Positions 1-62,156 of a DNA stretch of 64,000 nt are shown piece after piece. The stretch is from Bradyrhizobiaceae bacterium. GTDB lineage: Bacteria; Pseudomonadota; Alphaproteobacteria; Rhizobiales; Xanthobacteraceae. The notes under the pieces were generated by a model. It worked only from the letters and a program-made list of their open reading frames with translations. It made no database searches and was not told the DNA's origin. The translations under genes were made by a program, and so were the position numbers. Where the stretch lies: assembly GCA_003963435.1 (NCBI GenBank), contig RXJC01000004.1:62001-126000 (forward strand), read 5' to 3'. Within the stretch, counting starts at the first letter, position 1, and every line of letters starts with the position of its first letter.

Positions 1-3000
1 CGCCAGCTTGGCGATCAGGCTAACGCCGTCATTAGGGGCGAAGCCGGCATGAAGGAGCCGCATCAACTGATCGAGCAACCAATCCGGATCGATGCCCCAG
101 GAAAACCAGATGCCGATGAGGCCGAGCTCTTTCTTGAACGGCGCCTTGTCTGCAGCGCGCGCGGCCAGCACGAGGCGCCGGGCCCAATAGTGTTTTGCCC
201 GTTTGCGAAGAGAATTATCATCGCCGAGATGACGGCCGACATACCACATGGCCTCACGCATTAGCGCGGGCGGCACGCGTTGCCAGAACTCCTGCAGCAG
301 GCTTTCCGGCAAACGGTCCCAAAGATAAAGGGCGATGAGATAATCAACCAGCCGCTTTCGGCTGCCTTCGCCTCCGAAGGCCTCGTCATCGCGTCCCGCC
401 ACGGCGATATGCTCGGAGTAGAGATCATAAAGGGCATCGGTCAGATCGCCGATTGGTCGCTGGTCATCTTCCAGATGGGCTATCCAGGCCGCCCGGCGGG
501 CGGCCTGATCCTCTGGCGGAAACAGCAGCGAAATCCGCTCGCGTAACCAGGCTTCCCCGAAGTAATGCAGCGAGTTGAGGTGACGGCCAAAAATCGCGCG
601 GGCGGCGCGCCCAGCCTGTCCGCCGCGAGCAAGGGCCGCTTCGAGCACGGCGCGCAGCTCGGCATCATGTGCGAGCGCCTCGCGCGGCGCCTTGCCGATG
701 GGGCTTTCTTCGTGCTTGCTGCTCCAGAAGAGAAAGCAAAGCGCGAGTTCGAGATACGCGCCAATCTGGGTTCGCCGAGCTGCAAAGTAGGGACGTTCGC
801 TGCTAAGTGGAAACTCTTCTTCGCTGGGGTCCGGTGCGGTCGGCACGACACTGGTCAACGCGAGAACAAGGGCCCGGACGCGCTCATAATACCCAAATGC
901 GAAACCTTTCGCGCCTTGCGCGAGAGAAGCCGCGAGCCACTCGACCATGGCTTTTCGGGCCCATGACCAATCTGGGTCATCGCCGGCGATCGCCGTCGCT
1001 TGGGACGTGCCCTTCGCCGACTGCTCCAATACCGTCTCGGCCAGGGCAAGGGATGGACCCCAGGCAAGGGAGGCGCCCTGCCCGGTCGCCCGGATCAAGC
1101 CATCGAAGAAATGCCGGATGAACAAGGGCCGCAACGTCGCGAAGGCTTCGGCTGCGCCCGAGAACAGGTCTGGCTTGACGACGACGGTCTCGCGAAGTTC
1201 ACCAGCCAGGGCGCTCGCCGTGCTGCCTCGCTCGGTCCCACCGGGCTGCCAGGATTGGAGAAACGATGCGGTTGCCGCGGGGGTCTGCTCGAGCATCGCC
1301 TTTTGGGCGAGCGGGCTCTCGGGCAACTTTAAGTACCGCTGCCGCCAACCGTCTGGATCACCAAATTCAGCGGCCGTTTTCTCGACCGCCGCGAGCCTGT
1401 CGGAAGGGAGGGCCTCGCGCCACTGCCAGACGGCATCGCGCACCGTCTCTTCTCGATAGCGTCGCTCGTCCTCCACACCGGCTTTGCGGCCTTCCTGCCG
1501 CTCGAACCAGTTGTGAAACGAACCGATATAGGTCTCCGCGACGGAATCGATATGCGCGAGAATCCCTTTCTGTTCGAGTTTGGAGAGACGGGGAAACCAG
1601 GCGCGCGCCAAGGCCGCATATTCCTCGCGACACCATTCTTGATCGACCAGCGAAAGATCTGTGAGTTCTGCCGCGGCGAGATCGGGCGCCGAAGATGGCG
1701 CTATGGCCAGTAAATGAAGCCGCATCCGCCTGAAGATGCGGGCCTGATAAGGCGCCAAGTGACCGAGGACGGCCTTCATATCCTCTGGATGAGCGCGGAT
1801 TGCGGCGGCGGCGACCCGCAAGACGGCCATGACCTGGGTGCCGAGGAAATCATGGCCATGAGCCTCATCGCCTTCGAACGAGCCTGCCACGTAATAGCTG
1901 TAGTCGGCTTCATCGAGCCGGCTCAGCCGCTTGTCGGCGCGAGAGGACTCCATCAGCAGTTCACAGAGGCCGGGAAGCGCCTCGAGCGGCTTAACTTCCG
2001 ACAAGGCTTTGACGGCCTCGTTGAGGTAATGCTCATACATGGTCGCATCGAAGTGCCCGCCGAGCCGCCCGTTGCGATCGAACAGTTGAAAGATGATGCG
2101 GGTCACGCGGACCGCGGGAGCGACGAGGCCGGCGGCGGCCCATTTGGCGATGATGCTATGTGGGGCGGCCGTGAAGAGGTCCGTTGCGGATGTGACCCAG
2201 CCTTCGAGGACATCCGCCAAAGAGGCGCCCTCGGCCGCAGGCAACGCTTCGATCACCTCCATGCCGAGGCGTTGCACATCAGCGTTTTGGGATGAAGCAA
2301 GTCCCCGGATGGCCTGCGCGATCTGCATGCGGGTCGCGTCGTCCTCCGAGCTGGCCATTCGCTTTAGATACCGGCCGACTGGCCAGCTCCAGAGCCGCAG
2401 TGTGCTGCCGTCCTTGAGATTGGGGAGGGGCTCGGCAACGAGGCCTTCGGAGGCGAGGTGCGGAAGCCAGGCTGGCGAAGGTAAATTATCGTAAAAATAC
2501 ATTTGAAGCGGCAGCGCGCCCGGGATCTCGTTGACGAACAGACGAACGCCCTGCGACGGCGGCTCGGCAGCGATCTCTTTCACGCGGTGCATCAGCGCGG
2601 CGTAGCGCCCCTGCAGTTGAACCATGAGCGCGCGGATCACCGTCTCGAAAGGCCGGACGAACTCCGCCTTGAAGGTTTCATCGACTGGCAAGTTGGCGTG
2701 AAAGGACCGTTCGTGCACGCGCCCGTAGGTTTGATTGAGCTTGATCCAGAGCCTTGCGACATCGCCGTCAGGCGCAAGGCCGAGCCGCGTGACGATATGC
2801 CGGATTTGCTTTGCGTGACTGAAGCGCGGCTTCAGCGCTTTTTCGGCACGTTGCAGGGCCGATTCATCAAAACCCAATTCCTTTAGCTTTTTTCTCGCCT
2901 CACCGCGCCGCTCCACTTCATCAGCATTGTCGGACGCCCGTGCTTCCATGGGTGTCACGAGGACCGAGCGAACCAGGGAGTCGAGTTCGCGTAAGGCATG

Positions 3001-3168
3001 CCCTGCCAGAGGGCGCAAGACGATCAGCGGCAGCGAGCCGCTGGCGAGGCGACAAAAATCGACATACCGGTAAGCGACCGCCGTCCCGAGCAATTGGTCT
3101 ACGAGGCGGTTAGTGTCCGCCTGTTCGGAGGACAAGAACGATGTATCGGGAGGAGTATCGGCGGTCAT
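1..3168 (-). CDS. Very large predominantly helical protein of unknown function, C-terminus beyond the left edge (partial, >=1056 aa)
   Basis: Reverse-strand frame from ATG at 3168 (MTADTPPDTSFLSSEQADTNRLVDQLLGTAVAYRYVDFCRL...) read in sections down to ...RLLHAGFAPNDGVSLIAKLA at position 1 with no stop seen. Not in the ORF track because it has no stop in the window. No listed minus ORF occupies this frame. Confidence 0.85.
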   Translation of the reverse strand, partial: MTADTPPDTSFLSSEQADTNRLVDQLLGTAVAYRYVDFCRLASGSLPLIVLRPLAGHALRELDSLVRSVLVTPMEARASDNADEVERRGEARKKLKELGFDESALQRAEKALKPRFSHAKQIRHIVTRLGLAPDGDVARLWIKLNQTYGRVHERSFHANLPVDETFKAEFVRPFETVIRALMVQLQGRYAALMHRVKEIAAEPPSQGVRLFVNEIPGALPLQMYFYDNLPSPAWLPHLASEGLVAEPLPNLKDGSTLRLWSWPVGRYLKRMASSEDDATRMQIAQAIRGLASSQNADVQRLGMEVIEALPAAEGASLADVLEGWVTSATDLFTAAPHSIIAKWAAAGLVAPAVRVTRIIFQLFDRNGRLGGHFDATMYEHYLNEAVKALSEVKPLEALPGLCELLMESSRADKRLSRLDEADYSYYVAGSFEGDEAHGHDFLGTQVMAVLRVAAAAIRAHPEDMKAVLGHLAPYQARIFRRMRLHLLAIAPSSAPDLAAAELTDLSLVDQEWCREEYAALARAWFPRLSKLEQKGILAHIDSVAETYIGSFHNWFERQEGRKAGVEDERRYREETVRDAVWQWREALPSDRLAAVEKTAAEFGDPDGWRQRYLKLPESPLAQKAMLEQTPAATASFLQSWQPGGTERGSTASALAGELRETVVVKPDLFSGAAEAFATLRPLFIRHFFDGLIRATGQGASLAWGPSLALAETVLEQSAKGTSQATAIAGDDPDWSWARKAMVEWLAASLAQGAKGFAFGYYERVRALVLALTSVVPTAPDPSEEEFPLSSERPYFAARRTQIGAYLELALCFLFWSSKHEESPIGKAPREALAHDAELRAVLEAALARGGQAGRAARAIFGRHLNSLHYFGEAWLRERISLLFPPEDQAARRAAWIAHLEDDQRPIGDLTDALYDLYSEHIAVAGRDDEAFGGEGSRKRLVDYLIALYLWDRLPESLLQEFWQRVPPALMREAMWYVGRHLGDDNSLRKRAKHYWARRLVLAARAADKAPFKKELGLIGIWFSWGIDPDWLLDQLMRLLHAGFAPNDGVSLIAKLA

Positions 3169-3487: not shown

Positions 3488-3650
3488 AAAATCAACGCAT
3501 GATCCGCTTTCCCAAATGGGAGCCGCTCATCCCGTCGAACGAATCAAAGCCTCTTCAGGAATCTCGTTCCCCCATTAGAGCACATCGACCAGGGTCAGCC
3601 GCATTTCTTTTCTGTCTCGTTCTGTATCGCGCAGGAAAGAGGTTTCGCAT

Positions 3651-4159
3651 TCATGATGACGTCCTTGAAAAATAATCTGCATCGATTGGCAATTCATCGT
3701 GGAGCGCGCCGCGTGCTTTGCGACCGCCATTGTCAAGGTAGAGTTGGTTGATCAGCCCGCGATAATGAATAACGAGATCGCGCGAGGCTTTCATCTCGAC
3801 ATAGTTGGCAATGAGGTCGGGATTGATCTTAATTGATCGAACCTCGGCGGCCTTGGCAAGACAACCGGATGGCTTTCCGAACATCAGGTCCTGGCATCGC
3901 AATGCGATAAACACCTCCAGGAGATCGTCGCGGTCGTCATGCTTGAGATAAAGATCCAGGTAAATCCGGATTTGCCGGCGATGAGGGACAGTTTTTCCGG
4001 ATGGGCCTTGATCGCCGCGAACATGCAGTCCTGAATGAAGGCTTCGACGCACGAAACGACACTAATGATGTTCGTCTCGAAAACACCGCGGGCCCGTTCG
4101 AAAGCCAACATCCCTGATTTCTGAGTACGCACGCTAGCCACGCAAGTGCCAGCGGCCAT
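3651..4159 (-). pseudogene. HEPN-superfamily protein (RiboL-PSP-HEPN-like), split by a frameshift
   Basis: Upstream frame: FERARGVFETNIISVVSCVEAFIQDCMFAAIKAHPEKLS. Downstream frame: IYLDLYLKHDDRDDLLEVFIALRCQDLMFGKPSG...EMKASRDLVIHYRGLINQLYL, with an R-x4-H motif (RDLVIH). The two overlap at about 3960. Confidence 0.6.
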
Positions 4160-4616
4160 CCTTCTGGGTTAGCGTCTGCGCCTGTTTAAGACGCGTCTTG
4201 GCTTTGTCAGCCGCCGCTCCAGAAAGTCCAGCGTCCATGACCTTCTTGTTCAACTCGGCTCCAGAGAGGCCCATCGCCCCCGCGGCACGCAAGGCATCAA
4301 CGATGACAGCAGCAGCCTTACCCGGAACTGCCACGGCTTTGCTCGAACGACTCACGGTCGAAATCTGGCAGCCCGCCCTGGACGGAGGTTCGACGCCGTC
4401 CATCGATTCAGCGAGCTCTTTGAGGGTCCCAACGATGCGCTCCCGACGCATCTTGAGCTGGACGATCTCGTCCAGCTCGTTGTCCAGAGCCGCTTGCTTC
4501 TCGGCAATCTGGGACTCCAGTTCAGCTACGATCTTGTCCAGGCTCGGGGTATTGGTCAGCATTTTCGTGGGTCCTTGTCTACTGGACGAGAAAGCATCCA
4601 CCATTGGACATCGCAA
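4134..4616 (-). CDS. Hypothetical coiled-coil protein with C-terminal winged-helix-like segment
   Basis: LDKIVAELESQIAEKQAALDNELDEIVQLKMRRERIVGTLKELAE coiled coil; C-terminal VIVDALRAAGAMGLSGAELNKKVMDAGLSGAAADKAKTRLKQAQTLTQKDGRWHLRG. Overlaps the HEPN gene start. Confidence 0.6.
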   Translation of the reverse strand: MRCPMVDAFSSSRQGPTKMLTNTPSLDKIVAELESQIAEKQAALDNELDEIVQLKMRRERIVGTLKELAESMDGVEPPSRAGCQISTVSRSSKAVAVPGKAAAVIVDALRAAGAMGLSGAELNKKVMDAGLSGAAADKAKTRLKQAQTLTQKDGRWHLRG

Positions 4617-5532
4617 GGAAGAACGTGGGCCAAAGTAAATGGAGCACGACGGCTATCCTTCCATTTGGAAAGATTCCAGCTGTCCGGCTTAAACGGTCTA
4701 GCCCCACAATGGGGGCGCGTTCTCCAGCCAGACATGATCTGGTCGTTACGGCGGCCACGTCCGAAGTCGGACAGGCCGGACCGAGGGCCGCCGAAAGAGC
4801 AAAGGACAAGTGGGTTGAGCTCTCAAATTTAGCTTTCGCTAGGGAGCAAAATGCGGGTAGGTTCGATCCAAGATGACTGAAGCAACCGGGCGGACTGAAT
4901 TTTTCTCCCCATCTCTGACTAAGCCAGCTTTTCAGCGCGACGCGGACTATAACGTTCGGATAGATGATGGTCAGAGCGACTCCTACTTCCGGGACAAGGG
5001 TCCCTTCAGACCTACTAGCATTCGAACATTTTGGACCGAAGAACTCATGGACGTTCAACAACGTCTCGGAATTTCACGTGCGCTTACCAGCAGATCCTTG
5101 ATGGCAGTTTTCATCTAATCAAGGGTGTCTCGACCCGTTTTCGGACGCGGATAAAAAAAGGCGGCGCAAAAACAGATCCAATCGACCTAAGGTTGCTGCC
5201 CTCGTTTGCGCTTGTAAGCATTGCTGCCGAATGGGTCACGGAGCCGGGCGAACTGGCGATCAAGCATAGGAAGCCATCGCATCCCCAGATGGCCAAGCAC
5301 ATCTCCTCGGACGCCTTGCTCACTTATTCCTGAAGCCCGGCCGTGGGCGATTGCGAACAATTTGTGCGGTACATGTAACATGCGTGTCCAATTCGGTGAT
5401 CCTGTCCAGCTCTCTCCTCGTCTTCCAGTTGCTCGGACGACCAGGCTCCTGCGGCGTGGACATCGCTGGGCATCCGATAGGCCATAACCGCTTTCGCTCT
5501 CGAGACCGACCTGTGAGCGACCTTATCCGAGA

Positions 5533-5851
5533 CTAGCGGGCGAACGGACATGTTCGTCCAGTGAAGACCGCCTTGCCGAATAAAGCTTGTTTATGAGATC
5601 TGTCCTTATGGACGGTACACATCCGGCCAGCATCTCTGAAGGCGCGCCGGTGTGCCCTGGCGCTCAGGCGGTAGCCGCTTAGGACTGTCGGGTCGCCCAG
5701 GCGAGATACAACGCGAACGCCTTTGCTGTTCCACCGGCCGCCGACCTGGCCTGCGCCTTCGCCTCTATCCCCAGGTCGACGCAAAGCGCGCCTGATCGAA
5801 GTGCCAAGCGATGAGCTTGTCGCCTCCCAATGGCCCTACAGAAGGCGTCAT
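5533..5851 (-). pseudogene. Degraded RES-domain toxin
   Basis: ATGA overlap with the antitoxin; frame 1 MTPSVGPLGGDKLIAWHFDQARFASTWG*, then a shifted frame DRGEGAGQVGGRWNSKGVRVV (RES hallmark GGRWNs.G.rVV), then decay. Confidence 0.65.
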
Positions 5852-6330
5852 GCATAGACGCCGTATGCGAGGCGTGTGAGGTGCTGTTCAACGAGCTCGA
5901 TGCCGGCCGGAGTGGCAAGCAGGTCGATCGGACGACGCTGGTCAAGACCAATGGCCGGACGCTCGAGCCACTGCTCGGCTTCTTCCTGCGAACCGAACAC
6001 GTCCGTGGCCTTGGCCAGGATTTCGGCAAACTTCCAAGCCCGCCCGCTTTGCTCCTGGCTGAGCGGTTTGTCCGGAGCGACCTTGCGTCGCTGAAAGGTG
6101 CGAAGGCTCATTCCGAAGGCTTTTTCGAACGAGACCGCTTGAATGATACGGAGGTGACCGACGAAGTGGGTCAACGCAGAGCCTGGCAGGCCGTCCAGCA
6201 GCAGTTCGTGGGCGTCAAGGGCGCTTGTGATCCGGCGCGACAGGATGCGTGGCCCGCCGAGCAAATCGGCCACCTTCTGCAGATCATTGCCCGCCCCCAT
6301 TGGAGTCGGCTTCTCGGCTGTGGCAGTCAT
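5848..6330 (-). CDS. Type II TA antitoxin, Xre/MbcA/ParS (DUF2384) family
   Basis: 160 aa; MSLRTFQRRK..., AWKFAEILAKATDVFGSQEEAEQWLERPAIGLDQRRPIDLLATPAGIELVEQHLTRLAYGVYA is the typical MbcA/ParS C-terminal domain. Confidence 0.88.
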   Translation of the reverse strand: MTATAEKPTPMGAGNDLQKVADLLGGPRILSRRITSALDAHELLLDGLPGSALTHFVGHLRIIQAVSFEKAFGMSLRTFQRRKVAPDKPLSQEQSGRAWKFAEILAKATDVFGSQEEAEQWLERPAIGLDQRRPIDLLATPAGIELVEQHLTRLAYGVYA

Positions 6331-6426
6331 CGTAGCCTCGTGTCACGTGTCGCTAAATATACGTCACATCATGTCGCAACCAATCAAGCCTGGCAGACTC
6401 CGATTGAAGCCGAGAGACCTCAGATC

Positions 6427-6460
6427 GAACCCGAAACGACACCCCTGTCGTTTCTGGTTC
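6427..6460. repeat. Hairpin-forming inverted repeat within a small diverged repeat family
   Basis: GAACCcGAAACGACA-CCCC-TGTCGTTTCtGGTTC; related sequence at about 6896-6945. Confidence 0.55.
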
Positions 6461-7443
6461 AATTGGAGTCTCGGAGCGAGAAAGCCCAGTAGTCCCAGCT
6501 CACGGATTATGGCCCTTCAGAGTCCATTCTGGCTCCACCCGAGTCGGTTGGCCAGAACTTGCTTCCATCCGAGTCTGCTCCTTGCCGGCAAATTCAACTA
6601 TGACCGTCACGGTCCCGATCGACCTAAGCAGCAACACTTCCACTCGCTGAAATCAGCAAATCCGCCGGAATATTCAAGAGGACAATTCCATTTTTGGGAA
6701 TTCTTGTCGCCCGGCCGAAGGCGGGCTACGGGCCGTCCCTGTAGGAAGAAGAAATTGGACCTTCGGGCGCCACCGCGGGCCCGCGCTAGCAGCCAGCCCG
6801 CCGTCGCAGGACGAGGTTAGCTGGCGGCGGGCCTGAAAACCGAAAAATGCGACAGCTTAGCCGCCCAAACTTCATCCAACGGATCGGCAGGTCCAGACTC
6901 CGATCGAATCTAAACGACTCGAATTGAACCGAAAACGACACCTTCGCCCTCCTGAGGCGGACGCTTCTTCGGAGATGCCTCCTTATGCGAACGGTTTTCC
7001 AAGATGCGCCGCCGGTCGAAGTGCTAAAAACGTCAGCGCCCCTAAAGCCCCATCGTGCGGCCGACCCGGCCGCAAGCGTCGTTGTGCTAACCGATCGCGC
7101 TGATCGTTTCGCCTAGCGAACCGCTGCTCGCGAAAACGGCCAACGCCTGCCAGTACCAATCTTTGGCTTCGCGATAAGCAGGCGCCCGCTGCCCCCTCGG
7201 CAGACAATGAGCTCCCGACAACCGGCGCCGAAGCTCGTTTTCGAGCTCGATAAGCGCGCTGGCATCCTCCTCCTCGGGCTGCTCGCCTAGCACTTCCCAA
7301 AACGACTGGCTGCGATTGGTTGCCGAGGCGCAACCCATCGACGAAACAGAAGCGACCGCAGGTTGCCCTCAAGGACGGCATTGCGCTCATCTCCGCTAAA
7401 TGGCTTGCTTCTGATCGCAGTAGACGATGTCGCCGTCTTGCGC

Positions 7444-8586
7444 TCATGCCGGTAAGCGGAAAGACGTTAAAGCCGTTCCCTTGGCAAAGCCGGCAGCAAA
7501 GCAATGCCTGCAATGAGGGCGCCCAACCATACCAACCCCAAGTAACTGCCGGTTTGTGAAAGGAGCTGACCTCCCATGAAGGCGCCGGCGGCGTCGCCGA
7601 GATTGAATGCCGACTGGTTGAGCGTCGAAGCAAGATGTGGAGCGTCTCGGGGCTTGCTGAACAACTCTAGTTTGCAGCGGAGGGACCAGCGCGAACGCAA
7701 TGGCTCCCCAGACAAACACGGTGAGCATCGCCAACCAAACATCTTGACTAGTCTTCACAAAAATAAGCAGCGCTCCAACGTCTGCGATTAGAAGTAAACG
7801 AATGGCGATCAAGCTTCTCCAGTCCGCCAGCCGGCCGCCCGCTAGACCTCCGATCGTAAGCCCGGCCCCGAACAGAAAAAGCGCAAACGCTGCTCCAGAT
7901 GGGGCCATGCCTGATACATGCTCCAGCAGTGGAGTGAGATAGGTCAGCACCGAGAACAGGGCCGCGGAAGAAATGGTACTCATCAGCATCGCCAGCCAGA
8001 CTTGCTTGGTCCGGAGGGCCGCCAGTTCGTGTCGCAGTCCCTTTGCATCGGTCGAGCCGACACGGGGCAGGTAGACGAAAATTGTGATGATCGAGAGTAA
8101 GCCGATCCCCGCGACTACGAGGAAGGTCGACCTCCATCCCGAGATTTGGCCCAGCCAAGTTCCCAAAGGAACTCCGATGACGTTTGCGAGCGTCAGGCCG
8201 GTAAAAAGCGTTGCTACGGCACGAGTGGATTCACCAACGGGAGCCATCTGCGCCACGACGACCGCACCTATGCCGAAAAATGCGCCATGAGCTAAGGCTG
8301 TCCCGACTCGTGCAGAGAGAACCAAGCCGTAAGTTGGCGCAAATGCGCAAGCAACGCTACCGAGAACGAAGAGGCCCATCAACACGATCAGCGCCAAGCG
8401 CCGTTCCAAACCAAGCAGGCAAGCGGCGACGAGAGGCGACCCAAACGCTACGCTTAGCGCATATGCCGACACCAGCATGCCAGCTCCAGGGACGCTGACA
8501 TTCAGATCCGACGAGAGATCGGGCACGAGCGCGACGATTACGAATTCACCTGAGCCGATAGCGAAACTAGCAAGCGTGAGCGCCAA
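7444..8586 (-). pseudogene. MFS transporter (AraJ/NepI-like) with frameshifted C-terminus
   Basis: N-terminal 300 aa typical of MFS (GTALAHGAFFGIGAVVVAQMAP...). C-terminal TM sequence DAPHLASTLNQSAFNLGDAAGAFMGGQLLSQTGSYLGLVWLGALIAGIALLPALP continues only in the 7467..7742 frame. Confidence 0.8.
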
Positions 8587-61401: not shown

Positions 61402-62156
61402 TTACGCACCGCCTTCCCGCCGAACAGGCCGCGGTTGCGCACCAACAGCAGTGCTAGGATCACCGTGAAGCTGACGATCTGCCGATAGTTGGTCGGCAGC
61501 ACCAGCGAGGACAATTCTTCAGCCAGTCCGATCACGATGGCGCCGACGATGGCGCCGGTCGGACTGCCCAGTCCGCCGAGGATGGCCGCGGCAAAGATCG
61601 GAATCTGGTAGTTCCAGCCGAGCAGCGGATCGATGGCGCGGTCGAGTCCAGCGAGGACACCCGACAAGGCGGTAAGGCATCCCGCGATACACCAGGTGAT
61701 ACGCGCGATGGTCTGGCGCTCGACGCCGCGCACCGCGGCCAGTGCCGGATTGTCTGCAACGGCGCGCATCGCGCGCCCGAGTGGCGAGGTATGGAGCAGC
61801 AACTGGATCAGGATCACGCAGGCGATCACGACGATGGCCGTGATCAACTGTTCCTGATTGATGCGCAGACCATGCCATCGGGTCGGCCGAGCTACCTCGA
61901 AAGCGAAATTTTGGGTCGCATTGCCGAACGCGAAGCGGCAGATGTTTTCCAGGACCAGCGATAGTCCGAGTGACGACACCAGCAGGGTGATCGATCCGCG
62001 GTCGCGTAGCCGGGAATAGACCAGCACGTCACAGAGCATCGCGACCAGCGCGCATTGCCACGCCGCATGAGAGCGGCCCATTCCTCTTCGTGTTCGCGCA
62101 AAATTGCTCTCGGTAAGCAGCTCGCTCATCTGAGATTGTCGCGACTTAACAATCAC
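61398..62156 (-). pseudogene. LivH-type ABC permease lacking its N-terminal part
   Basis: Homology-like sequence starts only at ALVAMLCDVLVYSRLRDRGSITLLVSSLGLSLVLE; the usual N-terminal TM region (GLxYALxALGLTLIFGVLRIVNFAHG) is absent. Confidence 0.7.

Follow-up and report, generated by a model that had tools for sequence, protein, structure and literature searches.

In the defence protein DSR2, an N-terminal NADase is activated when the C-terminal domain binds the tail-tube protein of a phage (PMC10981675). Other defence systems, such as Tai, bind phage tail proteins and thereby block assembly (PMC11364771). Here we describe a large gene at the left edge of a 64,000-nucleotide stretch of Bradyrhizobiaceae DNA (contig RXJC01000004.1, positions 62001-126000, hereafter the window), whose product, P0001, probably acts as a single-gene sensor-effector against phages or other mobile elements. 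This function is proposed from sequence comparison: a long helical tail related to those of known immune proteins is joined in P0001 to an N-terminal domain of another kind.

The first-pass annotation had noticed a minus-strand frame starting at the ATG at 3168 that ran off the edge of the window. The frame indeed has no stop down to base 1, a run of 1056 codons, and extending the contig leftward completed it: the stop lies 252 bases beyond the left edge, and the final 83 codons with the stop codon occupy positions 61749-62000 of the contig in forward coordinates. On the contig extended leftward the full gene (L004:1749-5168, minus strand) encodes an intact protein of 1139 amino acids. This is a real, intact gene under selection and not a chance frame, because the longest open frame seen when the stretch was base-shuffled 500 times spans 422 codons, P0001 aligns end to end with full-length homologues at 36-65% identity, and comparison with the closest homologue (65%) gives a dN/dS of about 0.11 (dN 0.26, dS 2.4). 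In that same comparison 57% of third codon positions have changed, against 18% of second positions. Searched alone, P0001 has zero matches in Pfam (E<=1), NCBIfam or the PDB sequences and nothing of note in PHROGs, and the family profile has no match in the PDB. The earlier remark that Walker A, TIR and nuclease motifs were absent from the visible part extends to the full protein. A P-loop STAND NTPase with Walker A and B motifs is likewise missing, Pfam and NCBIfam showing no NTPase family, and the one Walker-A-like string (residues 1056-1063) is not conserved in the homologue alignment. The coordinates of the main features are collected in Table 1.

Table 1. Features of the P0001 gene in window coordinates.
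Feature	Position	Strand	Remarks
Giant gene, part lying in the window	1..3168	-	Residues 1-1056 of the 1139-aa P0001
N-terminal domain, all-helical	2548..3168	-	Residues 1-207; occupies the position of SIR2 in Dsr1 and of the STAND NTPase in the haloarchaeal relatives
Invariant H57-x2-R60-E61 ... R67	2968..3000	-	On one predicted helix (54-70); 13/13 sequences
Invariant H152-x-R154, then invariant D163	2707..2715 (H152-x-R154)	-	13/13 sequences
C-terminal helical-repeat region, proposed sensor	1..2547	-	Residues 208-1139, of which 208-1056 lie in the window; hhalign and AF2
Most SIR2-Dsr1-like stretch	1531..1962	-	Residues 403-546; A2 vs A4, hhalign P 82.6, E 9.6e-6
PADLOC Dsr1 (PDLC04166) match	1021..1323	-	Residues 616-716; E 7.3e-7

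The relationships of the tail are clearest when profiles are compared. A tblastn search of plasmids recovered a Streptomyces homologue, annotated as hypothetical, with 24% identity over 60% of the query, together with a weak match to a Halocatena 'ATP-binding protein' of 1493 amino acids that carries an AAA/STAND NTPase near residues 180-340. At least nine proteins related to the latter are encoded on plasmids of haloarchaea. We compared an alignment of seven haloarchaeal STAND-NTPase proteins (A6) with the alignment of the bacterial family (A2) by hhalign. The two are colinear over 877 columns (P 100, E 5.6e-49), with residues 208-1139 of P0001 facing positions 538-1461 of the A6 profile. Reversed-sequence controls gave E values of only 0.2-0.6. 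The C-terminal helical-repeat region of P0001 is thus homologous to the tails of these STAND proteins, beyond the generic likeness of one solenoid to another. The haloarchaeal NTPase itself matches nSTAND1 in Pfam (7e-6, sub-threshold) and Avs4 in the PDB (9.7e-6).

The tail also resembles the tails of Dsr1 proteins, more weakly than those of the STAND-NTPase proteins, and its match to genuine Dsr1 is modest. Dsr1 is the sole PADLOC match for P0001, and the same model recognises relatives of P0001 at 4e-19 (L027), 2.6e-16 (L033), 2.8e-10 (L032) and, in one further case, 2e-6. In members of A6 the PADLOC Dsr1 model covers almost the entire tail (E about 1e-28 to 2e-31), and the A6 profile matches SIR2-bearing Dsr1 proteins at E 1.9e-9. 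The bacterial family aligns at E 9.6e-6 with a set of Dsr1 proteins (A4) that includes a genuine full-length Dsr1 (L069, PDLC02183 E=0); against genuine Dsr1 alone the values are P 72 and E 3.4e-5, with partial coverage. A Dsr1-type helical region is thus recognisable in the C-terminal part of P0001, within the limits of that coverage. Its most Dsr1-like stretch follows the pattern IF-R-hLHLLA ... D-L ... EY-LAR-WFP-L ... IL-HID and contains the very peptide that had reminded the first-pass annotation of the helical-repeat C-terminal regions of STAND/NACHT-type defence proteins. That likeness reflects true homology, as judged from the 877 aligned columns and the similarity to Dsr1 tails.

An AF2 model of the tail is all-alpha, and the best Foldseek matches of the full-length protein are HEAT/karyopherin solenoids, namely karyopherins and CAND1. 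Taken at face value, these matches would make P0001 a housekeeping cellular scaffold or a transport-like HEAT protein, but their TM-scores of 0.14-0.22 lie at the level of any long solenoid (about 0.2), and we gave the HEAT/karyopherin identity no weight. Because the scores are generic, the family is very patchily distributed and remnants of the gene occur in relatives, as described below, we regard a housekeeping role as highly improbable.

The N-terminal domain is unrelated to the corresponding parts of the tail-sharing proteins: residues 1-207 have no counterpart in the A6 and Dsr1 profiles. The SIR2 NADase domain is absent from P0001 by both Pfam and PADLOC, and the first 207 residues are dissimilar to the Dsr1 profile. 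Pfam assigns these residues to no family in P0001 and gives no match common to all 13 members, only scattered sub-threshold ones; PADLOC returns chance-level matches only, a PDB profile search yields nothing below E 0.47, and the domain shows no recognisable motif of a Walker A, SIR2, TIR or nuclease type. An AF2 model of the domain is all-helical with moderate confidence (pLDDT 74.5, pTM 0.67). A Foldseek search with this model gave nothing below E 3.6, which is weak evidence, since the model was built from a shallow alignment of 12 rows. A stand-alone form of the domain was not found in 299 genomes of the phylum, where the search recovered the window's own gene and one chance-level match (E 0.006). 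The domain is better conserved than the protein as a whole, with 46-77% identity to relatives against 36-65%. The sequences sharing the invariant clusters of Table 1 include the Streptomyces member, at 26% identity, and the residues invariant even there are Q16, Y35, D37, C39, H57, R60, E61, R67, H118, W141, H152, R154, D163, Y189 and R195.

What such a domain might do can be read in several ways. Being all-helical and holding invariant histidines and arginines, it could be a degenerate or divergent HEPN RNase, which would make P0001 an RNA-cleaving abortive-infection protein with a HEPN head on a solenoid, in a layout like that of tail-activated HEPN systems; such systems commonly use HEPN effectors (PMC3710099; PMC11087260). 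We nevertheless consider this unlikely and reject HEPN membership, because an RX4-6H motif is not conserved: the arginines of R52...H57 and of R150...H157 vary among the members. Pfam detects no HEPN domain at E<=1 in any of the 13 members, and no HEPN structure appears among the Foldseek matches, at the modest confidence of the model. Alternatively, the domain may serve oligomerisation or docking only, the effect being due to a partner whose gene lies elsewhere or to the solenoid, which might for example trap a structural protein of the phage. The lack of a catalytic motif would fit this, and precedent exists in other defence systems such as Tai (PMC11364771). However, the higher conservation of the domain and its many invariant charged residues are what would be expected of an active site, and no partner gene is conserved, so we hold a docking role to be rather doubtful. 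Tentatively, and as one possibility, the domain of about 207 residues may represent a class of immune effector enzyme not described before, carried on a sensor tail that bacteria and archaea have in common and on which SIR2, STAND-NTPase and this new head replace one another.

Two other resemblances in this region deserve mention. Weak Pfam matches to RuvA_C (2e-4, 2 of the 13 members) and MutL_C (8e-4, 3 of 13) were not accepted as identifying the domain; what they pick up may be a UBA-like helical hairpin. The region matching RuvA_C was placed by eye at residues 84-112 of P0001, a possible small UBA-like hairpin insert that is missing in the Streptomyces member. Elsewhere, an in-frame fusion links the first 55 or so codons of a family member to a serine recombinase (L038:1501-2964, also L074:8616-10079); the junction apparently falls in a short segment of similarity near the catalytic serine of the recombinase. 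As this is one gene fusion in one genome (G645), a serine-recombinase-like nature of the first 55 residues was rejected.

In a sample of 300 genomes from the same taxonomic family, 8 carry a full-length member of the protein family, the window's own genome counted, and three more have remnants. The wider samples gave 2 positives among 399 genomes of the phylum and 3 among 385 of the class, each again including the source genome. A scan of 84,980 species genomes returned 11 loci, from Bradyrhizobium, Tardiphaga, Afipia, Pseudolabrys, Pseudorhodoplanes, Mesorhizobium, an Acetobacteraceae MAG and a Hyphomicrobiales MAG. The nearest relative of P0001 is in a Pseudolabrys MAG, and the gene is absent from the listed genomes of the window's own genus. 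With positives so few and scattered, the family is rare, patchy and horizontally spread.

The surroundings of its members are those of defence islands and mobile elements, although the neighbours were counted by eye from search matches, with no measured control for enrichment. One member lies beside a complete Gabija system (GajA E 3e-227, GajB 2e-186) and a TIR-APAZ protein (L031). Near others are found SIR2 and an Mrr-nSTAND3 protein (L030), a DUF262-type NsnA-like protein with an Eco57I-type methylase and GmrSD (L035), or PIN-TPR-GreABC and PDDEXK_4 proteins (L028). Carriers can be named in several cases: the member at L036, on one contig with L007 and L017, adjoins a phage capsid gene and is borne by a prophage, and the Streptomyces member (L039) adjoins TnsA, TniB and a Mu-type transposase in a Tn7-like element. 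A serine recombinase next to a tRNA-Arg accompanies the member at L027, conjugation genes, identified by eye only like some other neighbours, that at L032, and the window gene itself faces a serine recombinase. Around three loci (L026, L029 and L033) neither defence nor mobile genes are recognisable within about 8 kb.

Being so often linked to genes of recombinases, prophages and Tn7-like elements, the family could also belong to the islands, prophages and transposons that carry it, with an anti-defence, maintenance or regulatory role instead of a defensive one. We judge this improbable, since the tail is common to Dsr1 and STAND proteins, neighbours from several unrelated defence systems recur, and no relative was found in the phage records and viral contigs searched. 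Moreover, at one chromosomal site the gene has been exchanged for another: where L020:8855-12277 holds a full family gene, the same gap at L023:9025-12272, between flanks 93% identical, holds a remnant of about 390 bp and a SIR2-nSTAND_NTPase5 gene. This swap gives the picture of a defence hotspot, in which the gene was replaced by another of immune type. Remnants of the family gene are also present in L024 and L025.

A defence-type neighbourhood, as first suggested from the window, is therefore borne out by the defence and mobile-element surroundings of the relatives, subject to the by-eye count. The proposal of a multi-gene locus with a HEPN partner fared less well. No neighbour is conserved across the whole family, common genes being few and limited to single pairs of loci, and the adjacent HEPN gene could not be established, the frames at 3651-4159 being split over two reading frames, neither with a Pfam HEPN match at E<=1. 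Because of that split, the possible HEPN-like gene is possibly a broken gene or a sequencing error. The toxin-antitoxin neighbour was correctly called as far as the Xre/ParS antitoxin at 5848-6330 is concerned; across 5533-6330, this intact Xre/MbcA/ParS antitoxin (TIGR02293, E 1.8e-41) lies beside a seemingly frame-broken RES-type toxin. The window gene itself, to judge from these comparisons, is best regarded as a stand-alone system.

Several further genes on the same island and around relatives of the tail are recorded here in their own right. The gene facing P0001 (L003:15139-18549) is a frame of 1136 amino acids encoding a serine recombinase (resolvase, recombinase and zinc ribbon) with four C-terminal DUF4096 transposase-type repeats. 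About 16-18 kb left of the window, a response-regulator receiver is fused to a CAP12/Pycsar-type TIR (L003:2360-3235, Pfam 2.4e-33), overlapped by a downstream frame (L003:3213-4061) that by eye resembles a histidine kinase. The pair is apparently a TIR effector under two-component control, reminiscent of Detocs-like logic. The island left of the window also holds a protein with a Lon-like AAA ATPase domain (L003:9891-11444) and a DUF433 protein (L003:12049-12711). On a Halocatena plasmid, a tail-sharing STAND protein adjoins an ApeA HEPN gene (L041:1210-2523 and 3520-8001). A DUF4238-kind gene adjoins both a family member (L031:11319-12329, by eye) and a haloarchaeal tail-sharing STAND protein (L079:7056-7964, annotated), a co-occurrence that may reflect chance or a loose association.

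We propose that P0001 follows the logic of DSR2 with a different effector, because its N-terminal domain sits where the SIR2 or effector-NTPase part does and its solenoid where the sensor does; the proposal is an analogy by position. The C-terminal solenoid of about 930 residues would bind a component of the invader, and this binding would release or rearrange the N-terminal helical domain, which would then act as the candidate effector, harming the infected cell or blocking the phage. The active residues are perhaps H57/R60/E61/R67 and H118/H152/R154/D163. We infer phage sensing, activation and effector chemistry for P0001, and its position and conserved polar residues are what suggest an effector role for the N-terminal domain. 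Should the domain prove to be an effector, it would be a new one, for which these residues offer a candidate active site. One large sensor tail has been joined to at least three heads, SIR2, STAND NTPase and the helical domain described here, in a range that spans Alphaproteobacteria, a streptomycete plasmid and haloarchaeal plasmids. The tail comparison also defines a module with which additional headless or re-headed defence proteins can be sought.

Set beside the known systems, P0001 is likened to DSR2, a solved, tail-tube-activated SIR2 NADase, by analogy of sensor-to-effector logic only (PMC10981675): it has no SIR2, and the DSR2 chains in the PDB have no sequence match to it. Avs4 and the other AVAST STAND proteins are related at one remove, through the tail-sharing haloarchaeal NTPase that matches Avs4, whereas the AVAST STAND NTPase is missing altogether from P0001. 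With Dsr1, defence-associated sirtuin 1 (PADLOC PDLC04166, PDLC02183 and PDLC04167), P0001 shares the build of a single large protein with a long helical C-terminal region, and profile similarity; Dsr1, however, has SIR2 and P0001 does not, and the match to genuine Dsr1 sequences is confined to a part of the tail, at lower significance. The STAND-NTPase proteins of haloarchaeal plasmids (e.g. WP_247996002.1 of Halocatena salina) carry an N-terminal domain and STAND NTPase of about 540 residues where P0001 has an unrelated 207-residue domain without an NTPase, yet they share with it, in colinear order, the whole of the C-terminal 900 or so residues.
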